A stretch of 51,864 nt of DNA from Verrucomicrobiales bacterium (GTDB lineage Bacteria; Verrucomicrobiota; Verrucomicrobiia; Verrucomicrobiales; DEV007): NCBI GenBank assembly GCA_022361255.1, contig JAKSBG010000171.1:1-51864 (forward strand), in the 5' to 3' direction. Both the position numbers and the translations under genes were made by a program. This document shows positions 40,724 to 47,261 of this stretch, in pieces (the stretch's first letter is position 1; each line of letters begins with the position of its first letter). Below the pieces are notes generated by a model. That model was not told the DNA's origin. It searched no databases and worked only from the letters and a program-made list of their open reading frames with translations.

Positions 40724-41080
40724 ATGATGAATATCTGGAAAGTTTTCCTGCCGATTCTGGCTATGCTGGTTTCTTTTGGTTTTGCAAGCGCGGACGATAA
40801 GAAAGCCAAATTGTCGTATTACTATCTCAAGGGATGACCCTTGTGTGATAAAGTGACGGCCATAGTTGATGGACTCAAAGCAGAGTATGCCGACGTTGTG
40901 GTTCTTGAAACGACGAAAGTCGGAGACGGGAATTCCAAAGAGGAAATCGAAAATTCAGACATCAAGGTCCACGGCATCATCGCTAAAAATGCTGATGGCG
41001 AAATTGTGACTACAGTGGAGGGGCACAGCTACGGGGAAGAGAAAGTGAAAGAAGTGATCGCGTTGTTGCTGGAGGATTGA
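40724..41080 (+). CDS. candidate selenoprotein: exported thioredoxin-like protein with in-frame UGA
   Basis: Reading through a single TGA at 40835-40837 joins two halves in the same frame into one 118-residue protein. The first half is a signal peptide (WKVFLPILAMLVSFGFASAD) plus a strand KLSYYYLKG; the TGA follows, then PLCDKVTAIVDGLKAEYAD, VVVLETTKV and IIAKNADGEIVTTVEG. This is a thioredoxin-like beta-alpha-beta order with the redox motif U38-P-L-C41 in the expected place. AGAAGAG precedes the ATG. Neither half makes sense alone: the first lacks a fold, the second lacks its first strand and signal. A downstream TTG (40841) has an AAGGGA before it, so separate re-initiation is possible. A nonsense mutation or sequencing error is the other alternative. 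It is divergent from the Kef gene. Confidence 0.72.
40858..40874 (+). promoter_or_regulatory. possible bacterial SECIS-like stem-loop
   Basis: Downstream of the TGA, CCAT (40860-40863) pairs with ATGG (40869-40872) around a loop AGTTG, with a further G-C pair (40858-40874) across one mismatch. The loop begins 26 nt after the TGA and has a G as its second base, features described for bacterial SECIS elements. The stem is short and could occur by chance. Confidence 0.4.
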
Positions 41081-43238: not shown

Positions 43239-45644
43239 TCAGGCTTTCTTTTGTTCCGCTTCCTCTTTTTCCCGCAGGGCATTCGCAATGGCCTTGAAGG
43301 TGGCGAGCACCCGGGGCGGCGTCGCAGGGAGCGGGATTTCGATGTCGAGACCGGGTTCGAGGCCAAAAGCTCTCAGTGCGTGACGCAGTGCTGAACGAAT
43401 GGACGCTGCCAGCAGTACAGGCGCTTCACCGCAAGGATCGCCTGGAGTGGCCATGGGATTTCCAAGAGGGCGAAGCCTGTCGGCGTTGACCTCGAAGGGG
43501 GCGTCGGCAAACCCGGGGGTGCCGAGGTGCTCGAATGTGGAGGCATCCTCTGATTCGGCGGCCTGTAGAACCCATCCGCTTCCTATCTGAAAGGCGCGAA
43601 CGAGCTGAGCAAAGTCGCGATCATTTTGATTCGGGGAGGGGGATCCTTCGTGGACAACGTCGAGGCGCAGAACCTGGATTTCCCCTGTGAATGCGTCGAC
43701 TTGAATTTCTGTCACTGCCACGGCGTATGTGAAGGCGGAAAATGGCCAGCCGGCCCCGAGCTCGGGATCCCACCAGAGGTTTGGGGTCCGGTGGTAGCCG
43801 GTTTCGATGAGATTAACACGCTTGCGCCACGCACCTTCGACCACTTCGGTGAAATGGAGCGGGTCGGTAGGTGTAATGTCAGGACCGACCACTCCGTTGG
43901 AAAAGCGAATCGACTCCAGTTCGATCTCCGTCTGGCCTTTGGCGGCGAAAAGTTGCAGAGCGACTTCGCGAAGACGTTTGCGAAGGGCGGAGCAGGCGTC
44001 GTCGAGAGCGCGAAGGACGAGCCCCGCTGCGTCAGTGCCGATTACGGGAGTCGCCCGGGGAAGCGAGTCGAAGTCGTTGAGAATGACGTGGACGGAAGAC
44101 TCCTCGACGCCGAGTTTGTGGGATACTTCTTCCTGAATCTGGTGGTTCAATCCGTCGTTGAGATCAACGAGGCCCGCTCGAACGGTGACAGAGCCGTCGG
44201 CGAGAACCTGCACGATCACTGCTGCAGCGTTTCTTTCGGCGCGGGGATCTCCAACTCCGAATTTGACGGGGACTGCGGCGATCCCGCGCTTGTAACCCGG
44301 ATTCTTCCGGTTCCATGTTGCAATGGTGCTCCTGCGTTCTTCGAAATCACTGCTCCCCATTGCCTGATGCCATACCCGCTGAAGTGAATTGGGCTGCACG
44401 GGCTGGCCGTAGGGAGTGGTTTTCGGCTCGACATCTTCTGTGTAAAAATTCTTCTCCCTCACTTCTGAGGGGGGGAGCCCGGTTGCATCGGCAACTCGTT
44501 CGATGATTTCCTCGATCGCCCATGATCCCTGTGTGGCTCCTTCTGCGGGCATGGCCGAGGTAACGAGACGGTTGGTCTGAGCAAGTCGGGCGCTTACCTC
44601 GAGGTTGGGGATGCGGTAGGAGGCGTCCGCGTGCAACAAAGCCCGGTCGAGCGCGTTGAATGAATCGGCAAGGTAATAACCACCGTCAAGAGCCATGCGA
44701 ATGCGGATCGCATGAATTGTTCCGTCGTTCTCGTACCCTGCTTCGAAGGCGGTTCGGGTTTCATGACCGCGGGCGGTTCGGATCGCGGCATGAGGGGAGT
44801 TGGCAATTATGCGAATAGCACTCCCTGACTTCAGCACAGCATGGGTCGCCAGTGCCGCCAGTCTAACCGGTGCCAGCTCGAGAGCGCCGCTGAGTCCGGG
44901 GATGTCAAGGGGTTCGAGATGCACTTCCGATTCGGGGAGTCCGGCGGCTGAGGCAACCGCTGTTCGTACGAGCGTGGGGAGAAGGGCAGGGGCCTCAACG
45001 GCAAGTGAGGAGCCATTCTGCAGTGGTCGGATGACAAGCTCGCCTCCCAGGCGGGGGTGAGAAAGCCGGGCAGGTATAGTGAAAGCTCCTTCGATTCGGT
45101 TGGATGCGTGGGCGAGAGTGCCTTCTGCATCTCCTCTGCTGACAGTGCGGGCTTCTGCATGGAAATTCTCCATGGCCAGCGCCTGTTCGAGAGTCAGGAT
45201 GCCGCTGTCCTCATGGTATTCAATGTCGAGCTTCGCGGCGGCACGTCTGCAAGTGGCTTCATCGACTCCGATCACGAGGGCTACCGGTTGCCCTGTGTAG
45301 GTGACCTTCTCCTCCGCAAGAAGCGGTTCGCTCGACCATTGCTTTCCCAGCGTATTTTGGAAGGGGGGAAGGTCTTCCGAGAAGAGAACGGATGCGATCC
45401 CCTCTTCTCCGGCAGCTTCCCCTGCGTTTTTCCGTGCGATGGTGGCGGACGCGTGAGGGCTGCCGACAACGAGGGCCACGAGGCTCTTTTTACGTGACTG
45501 CCAGGATCTGGTATGACGGGGCGTGGTTTTTCCCACAATTTCGCGTCTTCGACGTCTGAGTCTTTCTCGAAAGGTCTCTCCGGATTCTGTCTCAGAAGAA
45601 TCAGGGAGGCGGAACGGGGTGATATTGTCTTCAGAGTCGCTCAT
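43239..45644 (-). CDS. xanthine-dehydrogenase large-subunit-like protein with altered cofactor motifs
   Basis: About 801 residues. The molybdopterin-subunit layout is recognisable: ALVVGSPHASATIARKNAGE, KVTYTGQPVALVIGVDEATC, the central domain with RRSTIATWNRKNPGYKRGIA, AVIVQVLADGSVTVRAGLVD, and the C-terminal PCGEAPVLLAASIRSALRHA. The last retains the Glu at the position of the catalytic base. However, the usual GGGFGGKE region reads IPGLSGALE, FRGFGGPQ reads MPAEGATQG, and MGQG reads LNDG, so the typical Moco contacts are altered. The ATG at 45644 is preferred over a TTG at 45656. It follows the xdhA-like gene by about 39 bp on the same strand. The activity could be lost or greatly changed. 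Confidence 0.8.
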   Translation of the reverse strand: MSDSEDNITPFRLPDSSETESGETFRERLRRRRREIVGKTTPRHTRSWQSRKKSLVALVVGSPHASATIARKNAGEAAGEEGIASVLFSEDLPPFQNTLGKQWSSEPLLAEEKVTYTGQPVALVIGVDEATCRRAAAKLDIEYHEDSGILTLEQALAMENFHAEARTVSRGDAEGTLAHASNRIEGAFTIPARLSHPRLGGELVIRPLQNGSSLAVEAPALLPTLVRTAVASAAGLPESEVHLEPLDIPGLSGALELAPVRLAALATHAVLKSGSAIRIIANSPHAAIRTARGHETRTAFEAGYENDGTIHAIRIRMALDGGYYLADSFNALDRALLHADASYRIPNLEVSARLAQTNRLVTSAMPAEGATQGSWAIEEIIERVADATGLPPSEVREKNFYTEDVEPKTTPYGQPVQPNSLQRVWHQAMGSSDFEERRSTIATWNRKNPGYKRGIAAVPVKFGVGDPRAERNAAAVIVQVLADGSVTVRAGLVDLNDGLNHQIQEEVSHKLGVEESSVHVILNDFDSLPRATPVIGTDAAGLVLRALDDACSALRKRLREVALQLFAAKGQTEIELESIRFSNGVVGPDITPTDPLHFTEVVEGAWRKRVNLIETGYHRTPNLWWDPELGAGWPFSAFTYAVAVTEIQVDAFTGEIQVLRLDVVHEGSPSPNQNDRDFAQLVRAFQIGSGWVLQAAESEDASTFEHLGTPGFADAPFEVNADRLRPLGNPMATPGDPCGEAPVLLAASIRSALRHALRAFGLEPGLDIEIPLPATPPRVLATFKAIANALREKEEAEQKKA

Positions 45645-45683
45645 TGAAACGGGCAACGACGGATGCGGAGAAAGGTGGATGTG

Positions 45684-47261
45684 TCAGGATGGGAGAGCGT
45701 CGAAAAACGGCTGATCCAGTCTGGCGAATTCGCCGGTCGCGGTCAACTGTCGCGGCCGGGTGCTGTCGTGGCGGGGGTGTTGGGAAAGGAATTTCTGGAA
45801 CAGAGTTACCACAAGTTGTTTCCGGTAGTCGGACTCTTCGAGGGTTTCGTCGACTTTGACAGTTTCATTGAGAATGGGCAGAGCATCCAAGCCGGTCGAC
45901 TCGTTCCATGCTTTCCCGACGAGAAATTCCTCCACTTCACGGATGCGGACGGGCGCTTTTCCGATTCCGGAATAGGCGATTCGAGCTTTGGCGATGGTGC
46001 GGTCCCTCAACTCAAGTGAAAAGGCGCCGGTTCCCCAGGGCCGGCTCAGGTTGCGGCGGGGACCTACGGTATAGACGTCTGTGATAGTGTTTGTGACACC
46101 GCGCCTGGCGAGTACGGAATCGGTCGCACGTGGAATGATCAGGGCACGTATGATTTCGTTCGGGGCAAGGATGGTAGTTCCTGAGTCATCAAAAAACCGG
46201 GACAGCGGTGCATCGCGCTCCCCGTCTTCGGATGTGAGCAGGATGCGGGAATTCAGAGCAAGCAGGAGCGGAGTGAGAGGGCCATCTTTCCAACCCGATG
46301 CGAGGTAGCCTCCGAGTGTCGCCCGGTTACGGATGGGGCGGGATGCGAGGCGACGAAGCACTTTTGGAAATGCGGGGCACTCGCGACCTATCAATTCGGA
46401 AATCTCAGTGAGTGAAATCGAGGCTCCAATTTCCCATTCCTCCTCCGTGGTGATAAAAGTGTTCAGTTCCTTGATGGTTTCGACAGAAATCAAATTCGGC
46501 CATTCGACATCTCCGGCGATGGAGGTCAATTCCGTTCCTCCTGAAACGATGCGCGAATTCGGATATTCCCGCTTGAGTCGAAGCATTTCGACAAGGGTGG
46601 CGGGGCGGTAAAATCTTCTCTTGGCTCCGTCAACGTAGTTCAGGGAGGGGCGCTCTTTCAGACGGAACAGCTTCTTGGTAAAGCGGTCTTCAAAAATGTC
46701 GCGTTTGCCGGTCCAGACGGAGCTTTCCAGGCCGGACTTTTCGGCACGCTGCGCTGCTTCATGGCGGAGCTGTTCGGTGGAGGCGAAGACTTGTGAGGCA
46801 ACCTCCCGTATAGAAGGGGTGTTTGCCGTTCGCGTAACCACTGAATCAAACTGATCATTGATTTGTCCCTGCCTACGGAGATCCGGACGGTAGTACCCTT
46901 CGAAAAGCAACACGCGCAAGGTGCCGGTACGTTCGCTGCCACATTCGAGCTGGCGGTTGCGCAATGCCAGGTTTACGGGGTGATCCGGTTCAGCATTCTG
47001 AATGCCTTCTGAAGTCCAGATCTGGCGACCGGCAAGCATGGGCAGCATGATAAGTCCGGCATCTATAACTCGAAAGCGATGGCGATCCCCCTCGACATCT
47101 CCCATCACGACAGGAACTCCGCCCTGCCATGGGTCGTGAATGGCAAAATCGCTGAAACAGGGGTCGAGCCGACTCAAAAAGGACGCAAGAGATCCGTGTG
47201 TATCTTCTTTTTCAACGCGGCATTCTTCACCGTCGAGCTCGAACGTAAACCAACTTTGCAT
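45684..47261 (-). CDS. xanthine-dehydrogenase small-subunit-like protein lacking iron-sulfur cysteines
   Basis: 525 residues with the XdhA fusion layout: an N-terminal ferredoxin-like domain, a helical [2Fe-2S] domain, a FAD domain (RIVSGGTELTSIAGDVEWPN, IRNRATLGGYLASG, FDDSGTTILAPNEIIRALII) and a C-terminal CO-dehydrogenase-type flavoprotein domain (FSLELRDRTIAKARIAYSGI). The positions that hold iron-sulfur ligands in the family are changed: the region of C-x4-C-x2-C reads AIHDPWQGGVPVVMGD, NSCL reads DAGL, CGFCTPG reads CGSERTG, and the CRCTGYR segment reads INDQFDS. The FAD domain looks intact. Electron transfer by the classical route is therefore unlikely. The gene heads a two-gene set with the xdhB-like gene. 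Confidence 0.82.
   Translation of the reverse strand: MQSWFTFELDGEECRVEKEDTHGSLASFLSRLDPCFSDFAIHDPWQGGVPVVMGDVEGDRHRFRVIDAGLIMLPMLAGRQIWTSEGIQNAEPDHPVNLALRNRQLECGSERTGTLRVLLFEGYYRPDLRRQGQINDQFDSVVTRTANTPSIREVASQVFASTEQLRHEAAQRAEKSGLESSVWTGKRDIFEDRFTKKLFRLKERPSLNYVDGAKRRFYRPATLVEMLRLKREYPNSRIVSGGTELTSIAGDVEWPNLISVETIKELNTFITTEEEWEIGASISLTEISELIGRECPAFPKVLRRLASRPIRNRATLGGYLASGWKDGPLTPLLLALNSRILLTSEDGERDAPLSRFFDDSGTTILAPNEIIRALIIPRATDSVLARRGVTNTITDVYTVGPRRNLSRPWGTGAFSLELRDRTIAKARIAYSGIGKAPVRIREVEEFLVGKAWNESTGLDALPILNETVKVDETLEESDYRKQLVVTLFQKFLSQHPRHDSTRPRQLTATGEFARLDQPFFDALPS

Follow-up and report, generated by a model that had tools for sequence, protein, structure and literature searches.

The 2026 catalogue of prokaryotic selenoproteins (PMC13188914) describes many families built on a UxxC motif, where U is selenocysteine (Sec). 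Two of its entries are among the known systems closest to the gene reported here. The Sec-containing thioredoxin (PF00085) shares with it the thioredoxin fold and a Sec that opens the UxxC motif where helix 1 begins, and the Sec-containing glutaredoxin (PF00462), with the glutaredoxin-like families of the same catalogue, shares the UxxC motif and a short thioredoxin-fold domain. Verrucomicrobia are named neither in that catalogue nor in the 2022 list (PMC9312934) nor in the deep-Sep paper (PMC12013277). A literature search for a described selenoprotein from Verrucomicrobia, or for one that lacks the cis-proline, gave nothing fitting, and among papers joining the terms selenoprotein, selenocysteine and Verrucomicrobi- none announces such a family in its title or in the opening of its abstract. 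As supplements and closed papers lay outside the search, the family may have been recorded before, notably in the large metagenome surveys. We read the gene as belonging to a candidate selenoprotein family that is new, absent from the catalogues examined and so far seen in Verrucomicrobiales alone.

The gene lies in a stretch of 51,864 nucleotides from a Verrucomicrobiales bacterium (contig JAKSBG010000171.1, positions 1 to 51,864), which we call the window. Between 40724 and 41080 the reading frame is interrupted only once, by the TGA at 40835-40837, and its translation runs MMNIWKVFLPILAMLVSFGFASADDKKAKLSYYYLKG-U-PLC and onwards. Mechanical calling of open reading frames breaks it into two pieces, of 65 residues up to the TGA and 79 beyond it. 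A first-pass annotation, made from the letters of the window, had described two open stretches in the same frame split by this codon and had read them as one candidate selenoprotein gene; the translation and the 43 loci described below bear out the split frame, and the selenoprotein reading is supported, with Sec insertion itself something we infer from sequence. Translation probably starts at the second of two ATG codons, because the second methionine is the first residue of the homologues, which gives a product of about 118 residues. N-terminal hydrophobicity is common to all homologues. The features are collected in Table 1. Elsewhere in the window, at 43239-47261 on the minus strand, two adjoining large genes resemble, by eye from the list of open reading frames, subunits of molybdenum hydroxylases of the xanthine dehydrogenase type.

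Table 1. Features of the candidate selenoprotein gene, in window coordinates
Feature	Position	Strand	Detail
Putative selenoprotein coding sequence, one TGA read through	40727..41080	+	stop TGA 41078-41080; alternative ATG 40724
Putative signal peptide MNIWKVFLPILAMLVSFGFASA	40727..40792	+	read from sequence; probable cleavage past ASA
TGA, predicted selenocysteine U38, opening the UPLC redox motif	40835..40837	+	TGA in 43 Sec forms, Cys codon in 4
Pro-Leu-Cys, remainder of UxxC; Cys41 invariant	40838..40846	+	alignment of homologues
Bacterial SECIS-like hairpin	40858..40874	+	stem 40858-40863 with 40869-40874; loop AGTTG 40864-40868
His83-Gly84, invariant, at the thioredoxin cis-proline place	40970..40975	+	alignment of homologues
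His101, invariant, substrate groove	41024..41026	+	aligns after Gly92 of E. coli-type thioredoxin

Of 34 genomes of the genus searched with the single sequence, 5 have the protein, that of the window included, with one TGA in every copy and 47-78% identity between the window protein and the other four. A profile search across the taxonomic family gave 19 Sec forms, from five genera, together with four weaker, stop-free forms. The order-wide search brought the Sec form to 43 genomes (again counting the window's own) in 10 genera, two families and one order. At the sequence level, each of the 43 loci has exactly one in-frame TGA and in each it is the first residue of UxxC, with identity reaching down to 43%; such agreement is far more than chance would give. 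Four distant homologues, all from one genus (L046-L049), have a cysteine codon (TGC or TGT) at this position. The first-pass annotation had placed the UGA exactly where the first redox cysteine belongs, and this stands: every homologue carries Sec or Cys there and no other residue. The Cys forms have the motif CFLC, and most of them carry a signal resembling that of lipoproteins (LxGC or similar). In the tree they stand apart, on a side of their own that is well supported; one genome (G050) encodes a Sec form and a Cys form together. No further Sec form was present in 388 genomes drawn evenly across the phylum, which gave distant Cys thioredoxins only. Other phyla were covered by one pattern scan aimed at close relatives, and the two named relatives that it returned are metagenome-assembled genomes of Verrucomicrobiales and Akkermansiaceae. 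One Sec form (L101) departs from the others in having Gln for the Gly before Sec and Asp for Gly104, with the UGA, the hairpin and both histidines retained.

Purifying selection acts before and after the TGA alike (pN 0.09-0.41, against pS of 0.54 or more). As pN is well below pS downstream of the TGA, the downstream half is translated. This bears on the alternative that the TGA is a true stop in a pseudogene or truncated gene, or an error in a draft sequence. The assembly is indeed a draft in 548 contigs and the window's copy of the hairpin is weak when taken by itself, but the identical TGA recurs in 43 genomes, the part beyond it is under selection and the TGA-free relatives carry Cys and nothing else. 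The conservation of the TGA refutes a true stop, to which we give almost no credence.

The first-pass annotation had also pointed to a CCAT/ATGG hairpin beginning 26 nt after the UGA, with a G in its loop. The hairpin is present (CCAT at 40860-40863, ATGG at 40869-40872) and the loop does contain the G, but it is the loop, not the stem, that begins at 26 nt. The published model of bacterial SECIS elements has a stem of 4-16 bp, a loop of 3-9 nt and a distance of 16-37 nt from the UGA, with a G (followed by G or U) within the first two loop positions and a quoted energy limit of -7.5 kcal/mol. At the level of the family the geometry fits this model, as the earlier annotation had anticipated: all 36 distinct sequences have a loop of CGUGA or AGUU(G/A), hence N-G-U, at 26 nt on a stem of 4-6 bp. 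The window copy, at -3.3 kcal/mol over a 25-nt core, misses the energy limit and folds no better than shuffled sequences. It is weak by itself because of a G.A mismatch (40859/40873), from which its relatives are free. Two close relatives reach -10.5 and -8.1 kcal/mol and three others -3.3 to -7.1. The window copy is the weakest hairpin of the family, and the case for a SECIS element rests on the family rather than on this copy.

Most members have the hairpin GGUCAU-CGUGA-AUGACC, and the window's nearest relatives GGCCAU-AGUUG-AUGGCC. The six stem pairs are formed in 30, 35, 36, 35, 36 and 36 of the 36 distinct sequences, and in a set of 26 sequences 94.9% of cells pair, compared with 13-46% when the partner strand is slid. 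Three sequences show a C-G/U-A double change, all at one base pair; shuffles often reach a count of one, so we give this less weight and rely on the paired cells, the slid controls and the pattern of synonymous change. Synonymous divergence falls from about 0.79 to 0.39 at codons about 6-14 past the UGA and is equally low nowhere else. This valley is the hairpin. Within it an invariant Ile is written only as ATC or ATA and an invariant Val only as GTG or GTT, while the invariant Gly codons beyond it use all four possibilities. The loops fall into two classes, AGTT(G/A) and CGTGA, the first of which occurs on the window's side of the tree alone, in most cases together with Asp, not Asn, at residue 49. 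An Rfam scan of the stretch gave nothing above chance.

The genome of the window is a draft of 5.85 Mb that is 95.7% complete. It was expected to encode selA, selB, selD and tRNA-Sec if the earlier reading was right, and all four were found. selA scores 508 bits and selD 378 bits (L025, G000:C471:14075-15004), and a tRNA-Sec with the anticodon TCA lies above the Rfam cut-off and is also called by ARAGORN. selB is in two contig-end pieces: an N-terminal piece (L013) runs off the end of contig C471, which also carries selD and selA, and a second (L014), covering model positions 139-580, runs off the end of C114. The two are probably one gene. Directly upstream of the selB start, C471 has two membrane permease-like genes. 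The selD gene has an in-frame TGA of its own, in SSCAGUASK, which is the UxxK motif of the prokaryotic catalogue (PMC13188914); selenophosphate synthetase, by this motif a predicted selenoprotein itself, is a built-in positive control.

Across 387 genomes of the order, selA is present in 40 of the 43 that have the Sec form and in 80 of the 344 others (Fisher p about 1e-19, uncorrected for relatedness). The three Sec-form genomes without selA are 54, 59 and 72% complete. When the count is limited to the taxonomic family and to genomes at least 70% complete, selA occurs in 17/17 Sec-form genomes and 29/49 of the rest.

These results also bear on the possibility that the UGA is decoded by ordinary readthrough or under a reassigned code, for example as Trp. 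The protein alignment taken alone demands only a conserved stop that is read through, and to that extent would suit such decoding. Against it, the homologues carry Cys and not Trp, the genome encodes all of the Sec machinery and, in selD, another gene with a UGA of a known Sec type, the RNA hairpin of SECIS geometry is under synonymous constraint, and the presence of the Sec form tracks selA. We therefore regard readthrough or reassignment as very improbable. The active site almost certainly has a Sec written as the in-frame TGA, as judged from the gene and genome sequences.

The first-pass annotation had proposed a thioredoxin-like fold, and the predicted structure agrees. An AlphaFold model built from three sequences (pLDDT 78.7, pTM 0.68) has the order strand, UxxC, helix, strand, helix, strand, strand, helix, which is that of thioredoxin. 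In the model U38-P-L-C41 follows strand 28-36 and lies where helix 1 (39-55) begins, and a helix at residues 5-25 overlaps the putative signal peptide. Foldseek matches of the model are thioredoxins, thioredoxins fill the VIA-align list (Z up to 10.6, rmsd 2.5 over 80 residues), and a PDB search with the family profile likewise gives thioredoxins. Seven positions are invariant across an alignment of 20 Sec and Cys forms: Tyr33, U/C38, Cys41, His83, Gly84, Gly92 and His101. No member seen has a cis-proline before strand 3; an invariant His-Gly is there instead. The profile alignment puts His83-Gly84 at the thioredoxin residue pair that ends in the cis-proline, and His101 directly past the Gly of the substrate groove (Gly92-Ala93), each with a possible offset of one residue. 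The missing cis-proline, the two invariant histidines and the distribution of the family are additions to the first-pass annotation.

It seems likely that this is a genuine selenoprotein of a new family and that it is an exported selenol/thiol oxidoreductase with a UxxC active site. That activity is the default expectation for an exported UxxC thioredoxin fold. SelB and Sec-tRNA(UCA), aided by the hairpin 26 nt downstream, would decode the UGA as selenocysteine, and the signal peptide would export the product, which would fold as a small thioredoxin-like domain with UxxC at the start of helix 1 as its active site. Outside the cytoplasm the selenolate may attack a disulfide or another oxidised substrate, with Cys41 resolving the intermediate. 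The window's genome encodes a DsbD-type membrane protein, which makes re-reduction by such a partner possible. The export, the redox direction, the substrate and the partner are all what we infer for a protein of this build. The gene neighbourhood has no conserved set that would name a substrate, as its neighbours recur within about one genus only.

The absence of the cis-proline together with two invariant histidines is unusual for a plain disulfide reductase, and it makes metal binding the main functional rival. Outside the cytoplasm the selenoprotein could serve to bind a soft metal or metalloid, or to deliver it, at a site made up of Sec38, Cys41 and His83 and/or His101, somewhat like Sco proteins, which have two Cys and one His at their metal site. 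Sec and Cys forms alike keep His83-Gly84 and His101 without exception, the pair aligns at the cis-proline of thioredoxin and His101 at its Gly92-Ala93 groove, and the cis-proline may keep metal off CxxC (PMC2757866). The alignment fits either His83 or Gly84 at the cis-proline place, though, and a histidine there could instead tune the pKa of the selenol, as Arg does for the Cys of peroxiredoxin. The neighbourhoods examined hold no recurrent metal-related genes. We consider metal binding or delivery unlikely, and think it quite unlikely that this is a selenocysteine-based extracytoplasmic metal-handling protein, confined to Verrucomicrobiales, which has lost the cis-proline and would use Sec38, Cys41 and both histidines for binding or reducing a soft metal or a metalloid.

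The candidate family is an addition to the known selenoproteins, from a lineage missing from the current catalogue, and gene callers would overlook it, as they would split the gene at the TGA. Its SECIS signal is unusually clean, and the valley of synonymous change at the level of single codons makes it well suited to testing bacterial SECIS models. With its invariant His-Gly at the cis-proline site the family also poses a question that can be tested, namely what role such proteins have outside the cytoplasm. If the reading is true, redox or metal handling outside the cytoplasm would depend in part on how much selenium these Verrucomicrobiales are supplied with.

The window protein falls below every Pfam and NCBIfam cut-off (NCBIfam release of June 2026). 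Its best Pfam match is glutaredoxin PF00462, at 17 bits under a cut-off of 22.9; thioredoxin PF00085 matches 10 of 20 members weakly (best E 0.0015) and not the window protein, and the best NCBIfam match of any other member has an E value of 2.5e-5. The (seleno)protein families SaoT (NF040730), TsoX (NF045809) and DF (NF049942) each match 2-4 of 20 members (best E 0.003-0.025), which is chance-like in strength, and none matches the window protein. The GOS_C selenoprotein (NF045500) was dropped as a candidate relative: it is a 377-position model of Omp28 type that matched none of 18 relatives, and control genomes were equally silent.

Also close are the exported CxxC thioredoxins of other Verrucomicrobiota (L050-L056, mostly CIPCK), which match the family profile at E 4e-4 to 2e-7 and share the thioredoxin-like domain and an N-terminal hydrophobic stretch. 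They have Cys for Sec, keep the IP(T/V) cis-proline motif and are without His83-Gly84 and His101. In contrast to glutaredoxin, the solved relatives of the window family, by profile and by fold, are mostly thioredoxins. From the Sec-containing thioredoxin it differs in turn by its putative signal peptide and by the His-Gly that takes the place of the cis-proline.
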